Source: an uncultured Oscillospiraceae bacterium
Lineage (GTDB): Bacteria; Bacillota; Clostridia; Oscillospirales; Oscillospiraceae
Length of the DNA stretch: 34,804 nt
Reading direction: 5' to 3'
Assembly (NCBI GenBank): GCA_944386835.1
Contig: CALXCQ010000084.1
Location: 1 to 34,804, forward strand
Below are positions 2,522-10,501 of the stretch, one piece after another. The position numbers and the translations under genes are program-made. Every line of letters starts with the position of its first letter. Position 1 is the first letter of the stretch. The notes under the pieces were generated by a model. The model saw only the letters and a list, made by a program, of their open reading frames with translations. It was not told where the DNA came from and ran no database searches.

Positions 2522-5500
2522 TCAGGAAACCGGCGGCTGTCCCGCCAGACCTTTGTAACATTTAACAAATTCTTCCGCCGCTTTTAAGGGATCCTGCCCT
2601 TTTAAAAGCTTCATGGTCAGTACCGGTTTCTCTCCTGCCAAAAACAGTACCCTGTCTTTCAATTTGGGATCGGCGCAAATGGCAGAAACTACAGCAAAAT
2701 CCAGATTTCGCAACGTAAAATGGAGCTTTCCCTGTTTTTGCAGGATTTCCGTAATCCCTGCCTGTGCCGCCTGGGCCCGAAGCAGTGCAACCGCCACCAG
2801 ATTCATAACCCCCTTGGGCGGATCCCCGAATCGGTCCACAATTTCATCCAACAGCTCTTCTGCATCTTCCTGACTGCGAATGGCAGCCATTCGCCGGTAC
2901 AGATCCATTCTCTGCTCTCCGGAAGCCACATAACTTTTGTCAATATTGGCCGTAATATTCAAATCTGCAGCACACTCCGCAGGGGCCTGTCTTTCTTCGC
3001 CTCTCTCCTCCAGAACCGCATCTTCCAGAAGTTTCAAATACATGTCGTAGCCCACGGACAGCATATGTCCCGACTGCTCAGAGCCCAGCAAGTCCCCTGC
3101 CCCGCGGATCTCCAAATCCCGCATAGCAATTTTGAAGCCAGAGCCAAATTCGGCAAAGTCCCGGATAGCCGCCAGCCGCTTTTCTGCCACTTCCGTAAGG
3201 ACTTTTCCCCTACGAAAGGTAAGATAGGCAAACGCATGCCGATTGGACCGGCCTACCCGTCCCCGTATCTGGTGAAGCTGTGCCAGTCCCAAACGATCTG
3301 CGTCTTCGATGATCAGCGTGTTCACATTGGGAATATCAATTCCCGTCTCAATAATGGTAGTACAGACCAAAATCTGCACCTCCCCATCTGCCATCCGTTG
3401 CATCACATCGGAAAGTTGCTCTTCGTGCATCTTCCCGTGAGCGACTGCCACCTCTGCTTCCGGAATCCGGGCTTTGATTCGCGCCGCAGTCTGCTCTATG
3501 GACTCCACCCGATTGTGCAAGTAATATACCTGACCCCCCCGGACCAGTTCCCGCACCATAGCGTCATCCAACACCCGGTCGTCATGTTCCAGCACAAAGG
3601 TCTGTACCGGGTACCGATCCTGCGGCGGCTGTTCAATGGTAGACATATCCCGGATTCCCGACAGGGCCATATTCAAAGTCCTGGGAATGGGGGTTGCCGA
3701 CAACGTCAGCACATCCACTCCTACAGAAAGTTCTTTCAGCCGCTCTTTGTGGCTAACACCAAATCGCTGCTCCTCATCGACAATCAGGAGTCCCAAATCT
3801 TTAAACTTTACATCCTTTTGAAGAAGTTTATGGGTTCCGATTATCAAATCCACGGTTCCTGCCTGCAAATCCTTTAGTGTCTTCTTCTGTTGGGCAGATG
3901 TACGGAAACGGGACAACACATCCACTGTCACAGGAAATCCCTGGAAGCGGTTGACTGCTGTAACATAATGCTGTTGCGCCAAAACGGTAGTCGGCACCAA
4001 AATAGCCACCTGTTTACCGTCCAACATAGCTTTCATAGCTGCCCGTAAGGCAACTTCCGTCTTTCCGAATCCCACATCTCCGCACAGAAGACGATCCATC
4101 GGTGCAGGGCTCTCCATATCCTGTTTGATTTCCCCAATACACCGGAGTTGATCGTCAGTTTCCGTATAGGCAAAGCTCTCTTCAAATTCCGCTTGCCAGG
4201 GCGTATCCGCCGCAAACGCATATCCCATTCTGCGCTTTCGCTGCGCATAAAGTTGAATTAATTCCGCCGCCAGGTCCTTGGCTGCCGCTTTGGCTTTCTG
4301 CTTCGTCTTCTGCCAGGCATCTCCCCCCAGCTTGTTCAGTTTTACCGGCGTCTCTTCTCCACCACCAATATATTTGGTAACCAGATCCAGCTGAGTTGCC
4401 GGTACATACAGAGCATCCGAACCTTGATAGGCAATCTTCACATAGTCTTTGACAACCCCATCCAGTTTCATCTGCTCCATGCCTACATAACGGCCGATTC
4501 CGTGGTGCTCATGTACCACCAAATCTCCTGGACTCAAATCTGTAAAAGAGTTCAGTTTCTGCCGGTTGGTAGGTTTTTTCCGGATAGCTTGCAGTTTCCG
4601 CCGGGCAGGCTGGGACAAAAGCTGTCCTTCCGTCAAAATTGCCAGCTGTAGCGCCGGATATTCCATACCAGACGGCAGTGCACCGTCGGTCAGTAAAATC
4701 TGTCCCGGTTGGGGCAGCTTCTGTAACGGGAAGGCTAAAAATGCACCTACGCCCTTGTCAGAGAGAACTTTTTGCAAAATCTCCCCCCGGCGGCGGTTCC
4801 CGCACAATACCAGGGAGCGGAACTGGTGATTCTGATAATACTGCAAGTCGGAAGCCGCCGTCTCCAAATTGCCTCCATAGGAGGGCAGCTGTTTGACTGT
4901 TACACTGAGCAAATGCTTGGGCGGCAAGCTCTCCGGATATCCCGCTGACAGGAAACTGTCAAAAAACACGACCGGCCTGCCCTTAACCTTTGCGCAGACT
5001 GTCTCCCAATCCGCGGAAAAATCACACAATTCCCCCGCCAAAATTCCTGATTGAAGCAGTCCGTCCAACTCCAATCCCATATCCTTCTGGCGGGTTTTGG
5101 CCGCCCTTTGCAGGTTGCCGTGGTCGCAAAAAACCACGAGAGCATCCTGTGAGATATAGTCGGCTGCCGTAGCAAACTCGGGATAAATCAAACTGATATA
5201 ACGGTCTACCGCAGGAAAACTGACTTCCTGCTCCAGTCTTTCCACATCCGCTTCCAAAGTCCGAATCAGCGCCTCATGGGGTGACCGTCGGCGTTTTTGC
5301 CTGGCAATGAGCCCTCTGATATCCTGACAAAGTCCCGTAAGCCCCTGCGGGTGCAGTCTGGGTTGCGTTTCTCCAACCGGCAACAATACCACTTGCTGGC
5401 AATTCTCTCTCCTGCGTTGGTTTTCTACATCAAAAAAGCCCATGGCATCTACATCATCGCCGAAGAATTCTATCCGCACAGGGCTGTCATAGGCCGGCGA

Positions 5501-6046
5501 AAAGACATCCAGAATTCCTCCCCGCAGGGCAAACTGCCCCACGCCTTCGACCATGGCCGCCCGGGTATACCCTGCGTTGCTTAATTTTTGCAACAGCTGC
5601 GGCATGGGGTAGCTCTCACCCACTTGGATCCTCGCTGATGCAGTAAACAGCTGGGATTTGGGAATCGTGCGCAGACACAAAGCCTCCAGGGTAATAATTT
5701 GCAACCGGGTGGCGCCTCTGCCCATATCGTAGAGCTGCCGCATACGCTTGTGCTCCCATCCCCGGGAAACTACCTGCGCATCATAAAACGTCCACTCCCG
5801 GCTGGGAAGGATCGGCGGCGTTTGCCCAAGAAATGCTCCGAGTTCACTCTGCAAACGCTGCGCTGCCAGCTCATCCTGGCAAATTGCCACGACGGGCCGG
5901 TCAGAATCTTGACACAGCGCAGCCAGCATATGGCTTCGGCCTGTTTGTCCCACGCCGGATACCGCTGCCGTCTCCCCGGCCTGAACGCTTTTACACAGCT
6001 GTCCATATTCCGGTAATTCTTGTAAACTTGCTAAAATCAAATTCAT
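2522..6046 (-). CDS. mfd: Transcription-repair coupling factor Mfd
   Basis: Mfd is an ATP-driven DNA translocase that pushes stalled RNA polymerase off damaged template and recruits UvrA. At 1174 residues it has the usual full length. The N-terminal part is the UvrB-like region that contacts UvrA. The RNA-polymerase-interacting (CarD-like) domain lies at about 500-560, including SPGDLVVHEHHGIG. The helicase Walker A motif GDVGFGKTE lies near 650, and the Walker B/DEEQ box (DEEQRFG) near 755. The RecG-like motor and the C-terminal TRCF domain follow. The ATG at 6046 is preceded by a weak AGGCAGG. It lies downstream of pth, as in Bacillus, but has its own promoter about 90 bases upstream. uvrA and uvrB are in the same window on the other strand, so three excision-repair partners are close together. 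Confidence 0.98.
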   Translation of the reverse strand: MNLILASLQELPEYGQLCKSVQAGETAAVSGVGQTGRSHMLAALCQDSDRPVVAICQDELAAQRLQSELGAFLGQTPPILPSREWTFYDAQVVSRGWEHKRMRQLYDMGRGATRLQIITLEALCLRTIPKSQLFTASARIQVGESYPMPQLLQKLSNAGYTRAAMVEGVGQFALRGGILDVFSPAYDSPVRIEFFGDDVDAMGFFDVENQRRRENCQQVVLLPVGETQPRLHPQGLTGLCQDIRGLIARQKRRRSPHEALIRTLEADVERLEQEVSFPAVDRYISLIYPEFATAADYISQDALVVFCDHGNLQRAAKTRQKDMGLELDGLLQSGILAGELCDFSADWETVCAKVKGRPVVFFDSFLSAGYPESLPPKHLLSVTVKQLPSYGGNLETAASDLQYYQNHQFRSLVLCGNRRRGEILQKVLSDKGVGAFLAFPLQKLPQPGQILLTDGALPSGMEYPALQLAILTEGQLLSQPARRKLQAIRKKPTNRQKLNSFTDLSPGDLVVHEHHGIGRYVGMEQMKLDGVVKDYVKIAYQGSDALYVPATQLDLVTKYIGGGEETPVKLNKLGGDAWQKTKQKAKAAAKDLAAELIQLYAQRKRRMGYAFAADTPWQAEFEESFAYTETDDQLRCIGEIKQDMESPAPMDRLLCGDVGFGKTEVALRAAMKAMLDGKQVAILVPTTVLAQQHYVTAVNRFQGFPVTVDVLSRFRTSAQQKKTLKDLQAGTVDLIIGTHKLLQKDVKFKDLGLLIVDEEQRFGVSHKERLKELSVGVDVLTLSATPIPRTLNMALSGIRDMSTIEQPPQDRYPVQTFVLEHDDRVLDDAMVRELVRGGQVYYLHNRVESIEQTAARIKARIPEAEVAVAHGKMHEEQLSDVMQRMADGEVQILVCTTIIETGIDIPNVNTLIIEDADRLGLAQLHQIRGRVGRSNRHAFAYLTFRRGKVLTEVAEKRLAAIRDFAEFGSGFKIAMRDLEIRGAGDLLGSEQSGHMLSVGYDMYLKLLEDAVLEERGEERQAPAECAADLNITANIDKSYVASGEQRMDLYRRMAAIRSQEDAEELLDEIVDRFGDPPKGVMNLVAVALLRAQAAQAGITEILQKQGKLHFTLRNLDFAVVSAICADPKLKDRVLFLAGEKPVLTMKLLKGQDPLKAAEEFVKCYKGLAGQPPVS

Positions 6047-6246: not shown

Positions 6247-6840
6247 TTACTTCCCATTAAACTGACTGGCAGCCGCCTGATACCCCTGGGTCAGTAACGT
6301 CAGTGCCGCCTGGGCCCCATGGTCCAGAGCAGGCAGTAACAGCTTCATTTCCGCCGGTGTGAACCGGCTGAGCACCCAGTCCGCCAGATCGTAATCCGGA
6401 TGGGGTTTTTCCCCAACACCTATTTTCACTCGGGGAAAGGCCTGGCTTCCCAGTTGCGCAATGATGCTTTTCAGTCCATTGTGTCCACCGGCAGAGCCCT
6501 CTGTCCGAACACGAATTCGCCCTATTGGCAGAGAAATGTCATCAAAAATTACAAGGATCCGTTCCGTCGGAATCTGATAGTACCGGGCCGCCTCGGCCAC
6601 AGACAGACCGCTGCGGTTCATAAAGGTTTGAGGCTTCAAAAGCAGTAGCTTTCTGCCTTCATATTCTGCCATAGCCGTCAGCCCTTGGAACTTAGACCGC
6701 ATAATGTTCACCTGCAGGCTTTCCGCTATTTTATCAATGGCCATAAAGCCGGTATTGTGGCGAGTCTTATCATATTCCGCACCTGGATTTCCCAGTCCCA
6801 CCAACATCCAATCGCAACTTTTTTTTGTGAATAATTTCAT
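6247..6840 (-). CDS. pth: Peptidyl-tRNA hydrolase
   Basis: Pth releases peptides from peptidyl-tRNA that has dropped off the ribosome, an essential recycling step in the cytoplasm. The 197-residue length is normal for the family. The signature GLGNPG (15-20) carries Asn18, and TRHNTGF (26-32) carries the catalytic His28. The later motif GGHNGLKS and the DDIS acidic pair are also present. The start ATG at 6840 lies only 3 bases past the prs stop and has no clear ribosome-binding site, so translation is probably coupled to prs. Met12 is a possible alternative start just before the conserved core. Gene order prs-pth-mfd matches the classical Firmicute arrangement. Confidence 0.97.
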   Translation of the reverse strand: MKLFTKKSCDWMLVGLGNPGAEYDKTRHNTGFMAIDKIAESLQVNIMRSKFQGLTAMAEYEGRKLLLLKPQTFMNRSGLSVAEAARYYQIPTERILVIFDDISLPIGRIRVRTEGSAGGHNGLKSIIAQLGSQAFPRVKIGVGEKPHPDYDLADWVLSRFTPAEMKLLLPALDHGAQAALTLLTQGYQAAASQFNGK

Positions 6841-6843
6841 ATT

Positions 6844-7797
6844 TTAGAACATAGTTGAAATCGAAACTTCATCATAGGTACGGCGAATGGCCTCTGCAAA
6901 CATGGGCGCCACATCCAGATAGTGAATCTTAGTCCCCACAGTAGCCGCAGGTGCCGGAATGGTGTTGAGCAGCATCAATTCGTCAATGCAGCTCTCTTGT
7001 ACCCGCTCAATGGCCGGTCCGGAGAGGACACCATGGGATGCACAGGCATAGACTGTCTCGGCTCCCCCTACCTCTTTAATGGCTTTGGCTGCATTGCACA
7101 AAGAGCCTGCTGTGTCCACCATATCGTCAAAGAGAATACAGGTCTTTCCCCGAACATCACCAATAATATTCATAACTTCACACTGGTTTGCCCGCTCCCG
7201 CCGTTTGTCCACAATGGCAAGCCCCATATGGAGCTTGGTGGCAAACGCTCTGGCTCTGGATACGGACCCAACATCTGGAGAAACCACAATAATTTCTTCC
7301 GTGTTTTCAAATTTTTCGGAATAGTATTTGACAAACGCCGGATTCCCCCGCAAATTATCCACAGGAATATCAAAGAAGCCCTGAATCTGCGCAGCGTGCA
7401 AATCCATAGTCAAAACCCGATCTGCACCAGCTGCTGTAATCATATTTGCTACTAATTTTGCTGAAATGGGGTCACGTCCTTTGGCTTTCCGGTCCTGACG
7501 CGCATAGCCAAAATAGGGAATGACTGCGGTAATCCGCCCGGCGGATGCCCGCAAACAGGCATCAATCATGATCAACAATTCCATCAGGTTGTTGTTGACC
7601 GGCTTACAAGTAGGCTGTACCAGAAACACATCCGAACCCCGAACGGTCTCATTGATGCTCACCGACACTTCGCCGTCGGCAAATGTGGTAACGGTGCTGT
7701 TGCCAAGGGGAATGTGCAACTCTTTGCAGATATTTTCCGCAAAAGGGCGATTGGCGTTTGCTGCAAACACCTTTACGTCTTTACCGTGAGAAATCAT
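6844..7797 (-). CDS. prs: Ribose-phosphate pyrophosphokinase (PRPP synthetase)
   Basis: This cytoplasmic enzyme makes PRPP from ribose 5-phosphate and ATP for nucleotide, His, Trp and NAD synthesis. It is 317 residues, the usual class I length. Visible signatures are FADGEVSV near the N terminus, the flexible catalytic loop with YARQDRKAKGRDPISAK, the MDLHAAQIQGFF segment, and the PRPP-binding loop ILFDDMVDTAGS (family usual DDMIDTAGT). The ATG at 7797 has AGAGAGG and AGG elements upstream in the leader. It lies between the GlmU-like gene (78-base gap) and pth (3-base gap), so it is probably part of one transcript starting at the promoter near 9100. Confidence 0.98.
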   Translation of the reverse strand: MISHGKDVKVFAANANRPFAENICKELHIPLGNSTVTTFADGEVSVSINETVRGSDVFLVQPTCKPVNNNLMELLIMIDACLRASAGRITAVIPYFGYARQDRKAKGRDPISAKLVANMITAAGADRVLTMDLHAAQIQGFFDIPVDNLRGNPAFVKYYSEKFENTEEIIVVSPDVGSVSRARAFATKLHMGLAIVDKRRERANQCEVMNIIGDVRGKTCILFDDMVDTAGSLCNAAKAIKEVGGAETVYACASHGVLSGPAIERVQESCIDELMLLNTIPAPAATVGTKIHYLDVAPMFAEAIRRTYDEVSISTMF

Positions 7798-7875: not shown

Positions 7876-9048
7876 CTATTTCTTTCCTTTTCCTAACCAG
7901 TCCCGTTTTCCACTACCTGCAAAAGCCTCTTCCTGCCGGATTGGGGAAATGTCTTCCAGAACGGTAGTTCCTGCCGCTACCACTGCATCCTGGGCTACCG
8001 TCACTGCCCCCAAGAGATTGACGTTGGCACCAATGACCGCCCGGTTTTCTATGACGGTACGACGGGACTGCTCCGGATCGTGAATGGTAGTCGCACCACT
8101 TCCAAATACCGTTCTGGCTCCCAGATCACTGTGACACAAGTAGCTCATCGGATAGATGGTTGCATCTTCTCCGATTTCGCATTCCTTGACAGATGCAAAT
8201 CCATCAATTCTTGCCCCGTTTCCTACCGAAACATTGGGTCCTAACTGACAATAGGGTCCAATTTGTGCGTCAAAGCCCACCTGAGACTCTACGACCTGGG
8301 AGGCGTTTATCTTACTGCCGTCGCCGATTTTGGCATTTTCCAAATAGGCGTTTGGTCCGATAATACAGTCTTTTCCTACTACACTTTGCCCACGCAAAAT
8401 GCTTCCGGGCAAAATGACCGTGCCGCTTCCTACGAACACCGCCGGATCCACATAACAGTTGGTATAATCCCAAATTTCCACACCGCTGTGAACCAGCTGC
8501 AAAAGGTGGTGCTGATTGAGCAGCGGCTGCCAACTGGCCAGTTCTTCCCCGGAAGAAACGGTGAATACTCCGTCCCGATCCGTATAAGCCACACCACGAC
8601 TATGTAAGAAGTCCAGGAAACTAAACTGTTCCGTGGCATCCAGCGCCTGCATCAGCGCGCCTCGGTTAACAGCATAGACACAGCTGGGTACCGGCCGTGC
8701 CAGCGTCCCCATGGTAGCGGCAGACTTGAGCACAATGGCCGGGCCTGTTACCACCACCACATCTTCCTCATCATCCTCCGATGTAGACAAAAACACATGG
8801 AGTAAATCCGCTGCATTTTCATTCATGGAAGTCTTCAGTTCTACATCTGCCGGAAAACAGCTATTTGCCTCATCGAGATACCGGTCATGGCAGACCAAAA
8901 AGAAACGCCCAACACCGTCGGCAATTAAGGAAGATACCAACCATGAGAGCAAAGGACTCCCCATAATGCGCTGGAGCATCAAAGGGCGGGAATATCCAGT
9001 TTTCGAAGTGTCGTCAGGAATAAAAACCACTGCGGAAATTCCTGCCAT
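7876..9048 (-). CDS. Degenerate GlmU-like protein (nucleotidyltransferase-like plus left-handed beta-helix)
   Basis: It holds the position that glmU has in the glmU-prs-pth-mfd order. GlmU makes UDP-GlcNAc for the cell wall. The C-terminal half is recognisably GlmU: hexapeptide repeats from about residue 195 (YVDPAVFVGSGTVILPGS) to the end. The N-terminal half is short and has lost the Rossmann signature LAAGxGTRM, reading AVVFIPDDTS instead. The GDVP motif with the metal-binding Asp reads GPAI. In the acetyltransferase half, the segment usually containing the catalytic His (HLTYLGD) reads PMSYLCH, so that His is not in place. Length is 390 versus about 455 residues. I start it at ATG 9048 (GGAAAGG upstream), because the longer-frame ATG at 9084 lies at the predicted transcription start. 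It may be a non-catalytic or altered-function paralogue; a true GlmU may be elsewhere. Confidence 0.75.
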   Translation of the reverse strand: MAGISAVVFIPDDTSKTGYSRPLMLQRIMGSPLLSWLVSSLIADGVGRFFLVCHDRYLDEANSCFPADVELKTSMNENAADLLHVFLSTSEDDEEDVVVVTGPAIVLKSAATMGTLARPVPSCVYAVNRGALMQALDATEQFSFLDFLHSRGVAYTDRDGVFTVSSGEELASWQPLLNQHHLLQLVHSGVEIWDYTNCYVDPAVFVGSGTVILPGSILRGQSVVGKDCIIGPNAYLENAKIGDGSKINASQVVESQVGFDAQIGPYCQLGPNVSVGNGARIDGFASVKECEIGEDATIYPMSYLCHSDLGARTVFGSGATTIHDPEQSRRTVIENRAVIGANVNLLGAVTVAQDAVVAAGTTVLEDISPIRQEEAFAGSGKRDWLGKGKK

Positions 9049-9092
9049 TTTTATCTCGACCTTTCCAGTTGAATTATGAGTCATACATACTC

Positions 9093-9121
9093 ATTATAGC
9101 AGTTTCTTTTATATTTGTACA
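9093..9121 (-). promoter_or_regulatory. Promoter of the glmU-like/prs/pth operon
   Basis: TGTACA (9116-9121), 17-base spacer, and a perfect TATAAT (9093-9098) on the minus strand. The transcription start would fall near 9086, which argues against the ATG at 9084 and for the ATG at 9048. Confidence 0.75.
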
Positions 9122-9259: not shown

Positions 9260-10363
9260 TCAGTTGACATTCACCGAATCGAACACTTCGCTTGGCAAGA
9301 CGTCTGCCAATTCTACCAGGCAGTGCTCAAATCCGCCTGCATAGTCATAATTGACTACAGGACTGCGAACACTGTCTGCTGCAATCTGCCGGTGCAGTGA
9401 CAAAGACATGGTCACGGTAGTGCCCTCACCTGGCTTCCCTTCCAGAATCATCGTCCCACCGTGTAACGCAGCTACATAGCGAGCATAGGGCAGGCCCAAG
9501 CCCATTCCCCATCGGGAATCTCCCAGGGGCTCCCGGTGATGGAACCGGTCAAAGACCGTGGCCAACATTTCCGGCGGCAAGCCTTCTCCATTGTCCGCAA
9601 CCTTTATCAGGACGCTATTTTTATTGGTTTCCACCCGCAAAAGGATTTTTCCCCCTCTGGGGGTAAATTTCATAGCATTGGAAATCAGATTGAGTACCGC
9701 CCGCTCTACTTTTTGCCGGTCTATGACACCGTAAAATTTCCCTGTGGGACAGGCATATTGAATGGTGATCCCTACCGTAGCGCACAAAGGTTTCACCCGG
9801 TCATAAATTCCACCGAAAAATTCCCGCAGCTCCGTTTTCTCATCGTACATGGGCATCTCTCCGGCAATCAGCCGGCTCATGTCCATCAGATTTCCCGCAA
9901 GACGCAAAAGCTGATAAAGAGCTTTATTTAAAATTGCCGTTTGCTTCTGGATAAAGGGGTTTTCCTGTTCTTCCAGAAGCGGAAACAGCGTAGAAGTCAC
10001 ACTAAAAGCTGTAGCCAACGGCTGCCGCAGGCTTTGGGACAGCACACTCAGAGAATCCAGACTGATTCCCTCATCTGCGGTACGGCAGGCCACAAGAAAG
10101 ATATCTGTATCGCCTTCCCGCTTTAATGTGGCATTGCGTTCCTGGGCACCAAAAGATAGGGTTAGTTGCACGGTCTTCTCACCGTCATATTGCCGATAAA
10201 ACTCTAAATTGGGGCCCAAAACCGTCTCCAATCCCGACTCCTGTAAAGCCAGCTCCTGCGCCGCTTTATTACAGTAACATATTTTCTCGTCTCGAACAAA
10301 AAAAACCGGCTGCTCTACACAATCCAGAATCGGCAATACCGACTCAACTGCAACACTGTACAA
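9260..10363 (-). CDS. Histidine-kinase-like protein lacking the phospho-accepting His
   Basis: The protein has a PAS-like N-terminal region (about residues 8-100), a degenerate HisKA region and a complete HATPase_c domain. The ATP-binding boxes are all visible: N box NLISNAMKF, G1 DNGEGLP, F box VFDRFHH and G2 GMGLGLPYA. The H box, usually SHELRTPL, reads SQSLRQPL, so Gln (codon 10034-10036) stands where the His should be. No membrane helix is apparent, so it is probably cytoplasmic, and no response regulator is adjacent. I chose TTG at 10363 because AGGGGGG ends 5 bases upstream. ATG at 10417 has no ribosome-binding site, and the longest frame (from 10501) begins inside the promoter. It may be a pseudokinase, an ATP-dependent sensor, or phosphorylated elsewhere. 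The substrate and partner are unknown. Confidence 0.85.
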   Translation of the reverse strand: MYSVAVESVLPILDCVEQPVFFVRDEKICYCNKAAQELALQESGLETVLGPNLEFYRQYDGEKTVQLTLSFGAQERNATLKREGDTDIFLVACRTADEGISLDSLSVLSQSLRQPLATAFSVTSTLFPLLEEQENPFIQKQTAILNKALYQLLRLAGNLMDMSRLIAGEMPMYDEKTELREFFGGIYDRVKPLCATVGITIQYACPTGKFYGVIDRQKVERAVLNLISNAMKFTPRGGKILLRVETNKNSVLIKVADNGEGLPPEMLATVFDRFHHREPLGDSRWGMGLGLPYARYVAALHGGTMILEGKPGEGTTVTMSLSLHRQIAADSVRSPVVNYDYAGGFEHCLVELADVLPSEVFDSVNVN

Positions 10364-10472
10364 AAAATCCCCCCTGTTCCTGGTTTCCTTGGTAGGATAT
10401 GCAAAATTTACGGACATAATTAAGTAGTTTTTACCAATTGTTTGACCGAGAATTTCCCATTTTTCCATTGCG

Positions 10473-10501
10473 AGTATACTGGAAAATTCGACAAATTGCA
10501 A
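10473..10501 (-). promoter_or_regulatory. Promoter of the kinase-like gene
   Basis: TTGCAA (10496-10501), 17-base spacer, TATACT (10473-10478) on the minus strand, in the gap after cardiolipin synthase. Its position inside the longest open frame shows that frame's first codons are not translated. Confidence 0.7.

Follow-up and report, generated by a model that had tools for sequence, protein, structure and literature searches.

The gene described here lies in a 34,804-nucleotide stretch (the window) from the 2.2 Mb, 97% complete MAG of an uncultured Oscillospiraceae bacterium (G000 in our set). It stands first in a minus-strand run followed by prs, pth and mfd (Table 1). An earlier note on this DNA had placed it in the glmU slot, and tblastn recovered the same slot-prs-pth-mfd order in relatives. 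Of the strong promoter and intact frame that the note also described, the frame stands, open over 390 aa; the promoter is a consensus match at 10 of 12 positions and not evidence of expression. A longer start at 9084 was rejected as it falls on the promoter. We take the start at 9048 to be correct because orthologues begin at the same Met and 9084 is just 3' of the TATAAT. A sensor-kinase-like ORF (9260-10501, minus strand) adjoins the slot gene, and similar ORFs flank the slot in G016 (L101), in G113 (L138) and at L105.

Table 1. Features of the slot locus (window coordinates)
Feature	Position	Strand	Basis
Slot gene; GlmU-derived 390-aa protein, catalytic residues of both halves gone	7876..9048	-	ORF, 24-member clade alignment, AlphaFold2
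Vestigial uridylyltransferase N-domain, aa 1-188; LAAGxGTRM, K25 and the GDxP Asp replaced, still conserved	8485..9048	-	Alignments
Left-handed beta-helix half, aa 189-371; fold kept, acetyltransferase residues lost	7936..8484	-	Alignment and model, block pLDDT 75-98
Former acetyltransferase motif, IYPMSYLCHSDLG where ISHLTYVGDSDVG is expected; catalytic His = Pro300	8119..8157	-	Alignment
Sigma-70-like promoter, TGTACA-17-TATAAT	9093..9121	-	Consensus scan, 10/12 + TG; a sequence match that says nothing on expression
prs (ribose-phosphate pyrophosphokinase), conserved neighbour	6844..7797	-	
pth (peptidyl-tRNA hydrolase), conserved neighbour	6247..6840	-	
mfd, conserved neighbour	2522..6046	-	

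The C-terminal half of the slot protein has the left-handed beta-helix of GlmU. Ten acetyltransferase positions of E. coli GlmU (R333, H363, K351, Y366, N377, N386, K392, S405, A423 and R440) were tabulated. In the alignment, seven of these (R333, H363, N377, N386, K392, S405 and R440) are replaced by G, P, V, H, S, A and F, respectively, and K351, Y366 and A423 are retained; the five residues marking GlmU membership (H363, N377, N386, K392 and R440) are thus all absent. The same site is intact in most slot orthologues (HLTYVGD, NYD, GCNTNL, IAR) and destroyed in G000. The bifunctional GlmU profile TIGR01173 matched the slot protein with 135 bits over positions 213-429, below its equivalog cut-off of 367 (NF010934 also describes bifunctional GlmU). 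An AlphaFold2 model had a mean pLDDT of 87.4, with values <50 only in the final 20 residues. Its closest PDB structures were GlmUs, and the helix superposed on the E. coli GlmU C-domain (4aa7) with a TM-score of 0.86 (by target) and an rmsd of 1.5 Å, the catalytic residues being gone. The GlmU-like helix reported from the letters by the earlier note is therefore upheld by profile and structure, and the segment it read as PMSYLCH (within YPMSYLCH) does carry Pro at the acetyltransferase His position.

The N-domain lacks the LAAGxGTRM signature, Lys25 and the Asp of GDxP, which reads GPAI. Alignment agreed with the note on the missing signature and on the change of GDVP to GPAI; the domain is also shortened as claimed, by ~59 residues (188, where full GlmUs from its order have 246-248) rather than about 65. 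With the N-domain signatures and seven of the ten tabulated acetyltransferase positions replaced, both active sites are gone and the protein is probably non-catalytic, as the note had supposed. The same shortened, dead N-domain was found in every Oscillospiraceae slot orthologue inspected at residue level. No full GlmU scored above the curated cut-off in any of 250 Oscillospiraceae genomes; among 60 relatives there were five, all in other families of the order. Judged by these sequences, the loss of the uridylyltransferase half is old and family-wide.

A search for another GlmU in the genome, suggested by the note as a check, bore the note out, with the two functions in separate genes: G000 carries a GlmU-type uridylyltransferase (P0002) and an acetyltransferase (P0003) (REPLACEMENTS). 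P0002 is a stand-alone protein of 250 aa on contig C63, with its own stop codon, the motifs LAAGKGTRM, PKVL, GTGHAV and GDMP, and a TIGR01173 match of 224 bits over positions 2-239. Its neighbours are ORFs that, named by eye from sequence, we presume to be acyl-carrier-protein-like and mnmA-like. P0003 (221 aa, contig C125) lies immediately after glmM and matched the C-half of Arch_glmU with 150 bits, its nearest solved structure being Sulfolobus ST0452. Its His motif is PHYNYVGDS; PHYNYVGDSILG...GAGSITSN retains the His in 19/19 close relatives aligned, and a glmM match was present in the retrieved flanks of 10 of the 19. P0003 is the same kind of acetyltransferase as the C-domain of the ST0452-type archaeal GlmU (TIGR03992; PDB 2ggo, 5z09) but differs in being a free-standing domain beside glmM. 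From their motifs, both P0002 and P0003 are predicted to be active enzymes.

Contamination is an unlikely source of these contigs because the tetranucleotide usage of C63 and C125 matches the window (0.86-0.89 per 4 kb, against 0.87-0.94 within the window and 0.2-0.72 for relatives). We rejected MAG contamination as the origin of P0003, since the composition of C125 fits, unlike that of C129. The latter bears a second, partial glmM at a contig end (L213, G000:C129:1-435), 74% identical to the C125 glmM, with a GC of 0.40 and a tetranucleotide match of 0.55 to the window; it looks foreign and is probably contamination or a mobile stretch. The C125 glmM is 68-77% identical to glmM of G018, G191, G145, G086 and G113, but only 42-45% identical to that of the genomes closest in their slot gene (G187, G140, G031 and G012), a pattern suggesting a joint arrival of glmM and P0003.

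An ordinary GlmU with unusual yet working active sites would fit the slot position and the helix homology, but is scarcely credible, as both sites lack their signature residues and the same genome has a dedicated replacement for each. It is also very unlikely that the slot protein is still an enzyme of another sort, its helix half retuned to a different acyl transfer or its catalytic base moved, for example to His306. The helix fold is kept with high model confidence and His306 is new, but seven of the ten positions have been replaced at once (the R440-equivalent Arg included), His306 stands in for a conserved Asp six residues on, and the helix is the fast-evolving half (see below).

Across the 250 family genomes, an intact-scoring slot acetyltransferase was found in 98 (‘intact’ being by score save where residues were read, and G102 showing that a protein may lose the one His and still score as intact) and a P0003-type gene in 114. 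Both were present in 11, the slot enzyme only in 87 and the P0003-type only in 103, a near-exclusion (odds ratio 0.06, p 8e-20, nominal as the genomes are related). The genomes are mostly MAGs, so absences may be gaps. Of the 11 genomes with both, most keep the slot residues. In G109 (L111, L205), which carries a P0003-type gene, the slot protein has K351R, N377Q and S405A, possibly early decay. Distant P0003-like proteins occur in 32 of the 250 genomes (L089-L096). We left them out of the acetyltransferase count, since Ser takes the place of the catalytic His in all eight that we aligned; an intact-scoring slot acetyltransferase is absent from all 32 genomes.

A survey of the 60 relatives and 250 family genomes recovered nine in which a broken slot acetyltransferase coexists with a P0003-type gene. 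Four of them have a full-length dead slot protein (G000, G016, G113 and G102, the last with His to Arg), three a truncated one (G250, G068 and G017) and two only its N-domain (G197 and G151; 157-165 aa). In a tenth, G222, the slot protein is truncated and no P0003-type gene was detected, the sole such case. All the broken genes other than that of G102 were confirmed to lie before prs. The slot genes form a series, from broken through truncated and N-domain only to gone. On a Prs tree that took in nine broken cases (G222 in, G102 out), the broken label requires seven changes, at least five of them forced by supported branches. The slot acetyltransferase has been lost at least five times independently. 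The earlier note overlooked that the two sites went in distinct events, very unequal in age and breadth: the N-domain is dead across the family, whereas the acetyltransferase was lost repeatedly in independent lineages and, it would seem, after a glmM-linked gene had replaced it. The genomes therefore do not show a joint, conserved loss of both sites. The orthologues in the same gene order that the note proposed to count share the dead N-domain in all cases inspected, but most have an intact acetyltransferase. A mirror case was seen in another family of the order (G058:C9, L140), where the slot GlmU has uridylyltransferase motifs, its helix half is truncated and a P0003-type gene is present.

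Two genomes, G012 and G031 (L100, L099), have an intact slot acetyltransferase and a dead N-domain, and a search of both for a GlmU-type uridylyltransferase found none. The profile PF01704 (UDPGP-type uridylyltransferase) had no match in 28 genomes, but the controls gave none either, so this result does not establish absence of such an alternative enzyme. In a search with PF12804, the G012 ORF L193 was set aside as presumably IspD-like, judged by eye from its sequence.

To examine selection, we estimated dN/dS by the Nei-Gojobori method in single pairs of relatives, dS between the window gene and its nearest orthologue being saturated. In a pair whose members both lack the acetyltransferase (G250/G068), slot-gene dN/dS was 0.21 (Fisher 2e-16); in the N-domain-only pair (G197/G151), it was 0.42 (Fisher 4e-5). 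For prs the value was 0.05-0.15, and the remnants ran at 2-4 times the values of prs and pth. In non-saturated pairs of intact orthologues, the N-domain, which lacks the uridylyltransferase residues, gave 0.03-0.19. The remnants in these relatives are not free-running pseudogenes, and their purifying selection suggests that the dead protein still has a non-enzymatic task. In the window protein itself, the N-domain is 64% identical to that of G187 and the helix half 43%, compared with 53 and 71%, respectively, in the intact pair G187-G031. For G000 the median helix/N distance ratio is 1.41; among intact pairs the 5-95% range is 0.38-0.94 and the maximum 1.12. The N-domain of G000 has diverged no more than those of intact orthologues. 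These differences from the intact pairs argue that the acetyltransferase half of G000 has been released and its N-domain has not.

The main rival is that the slot protein is a slowly dying relic, superseded and functionless, with relatives retaining open frames and a low dN/dS because the loss was recent or selection acted before it. The stepwise truncations and the faster evolution of the remnant relative to its neighbours are as this reading would have it, and the region upstream of prs, read in 26 P0003-type genomes, yielded no N-domain-like ORF, so the remnant is dispensable in the end. However, dN/dS is below 1 in pairs that had both already lost the acetyltransferase, the N-domain has a dN/dS of 0.03-0.19 in intact pairs despite the missing uridylyltransferase residues, and the G000 N-domain is no further diverged than in intact orthologues. 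We regard a functionless relic as rather unlikely, and lean towards a GlmU that has been superseded and is non-catalytic, with some role left to its vestigial N-domain.

The distribution suggests an order of events for this superseded GlmU. In the family ancestor, the uridylyltransferase half of GlmU would have lost its active site (in G000, P0002 would supply that activity), and the prs-linked protein would then have served as an acetyltransferase with a dead, shortened N-domain. This lineage would next have acquired the archaeal-GlmU-type P0003 after glmM, probably along with that glmM, following which the slot protein lost the acetyltransferase residues, the step read in its sequence. GlmM, P0003 and P0002 would now carry out UDP-GlcNAc synthesis, and the loss of both slot sites is best explained by these two other genes having taken over the work. 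What is left would be a non-catalytic protein of nucleotidyltransferase fold and beta-helix before prs, with an N-domain on which selection still acts in relatives. For that domain, by analogy with the proteins below, a non-enzymatic role is likeliest, in binding a partner or ligand. What the pairs show is selection on the remnant in relatives; the regulator or scaffold of UDP-sugar supply put forward in the note would be a conjecture beyond that. Simple pairing with P0002 is disfavoured, as G031 and G012 have the N-domain and no GlmU-type uridylyltransferase was found there. More tentatively, the dead N-domain may be a family-wide non-enzymatic module in Oscillospiraceae, independent of the acetyltransferase and kept even as a ~160-aa protein after replacement by a horizontally moving glmM-acetyltransferase pair.

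Compared with bifunctional GlmU (TIGR01173/NF010934), the slot protein shares the gene slot, helix fold and descent, but has neither catalytic centre. In other pathways, too, this fold has dead members: GMPPA is the dead partner of GMPPB. The structure is PDB 7d72. GlgD, of the Firmicutes ADP-glucose pyrophosphorylase, is an inactive sugar-1-phosphate nucleotidylyltransferase relative that modulates the active GlgC beside it (PMC9093745), and KONJAC1/2 are dead GDP-mannose-pyrophosphorylase-like proteins that raise VTC1 activity (PMC11066809; PDB 8yre). Like these, the slot protein has no catalytic residues and a preserved fold, and the N-domain-only remnant gave a weak structural match to VTC1-KJC2. 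As to an accompanying enzyme with predicted activity, G000 has P0002, whereas the search of G031 and G012, which bear the same N-domain, found no GlmU-type uridylyltransferase. GlgD is kin of GlgC, its known partner, and not of GlmU; KONJAC and GMPPA are eukaryotic, belong with GDP-mannose enzymes and differ in descent. The three make a non-enzymatic role possible, as an analogy and not a test. Among the papers searched, none combined ‘GlmU’ and ‘pseudoenzyme’, and nothing relevant on a dead GlmU came up.

In Oscillospiraceae, GlmU, which is essential for cell-wall precursors and a target for antibacterials, has been dismantled and replaced piecemeal several times within one family, with intermediates visible in living genomes. 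Annotation by gene order would name the slot gene glmU and put the real enzymes in the wrong place. Should the remnant prove functional, it would add a GlmU-derived member to those dead sugar-nucleotide enzymes that act as tuners of active ones.
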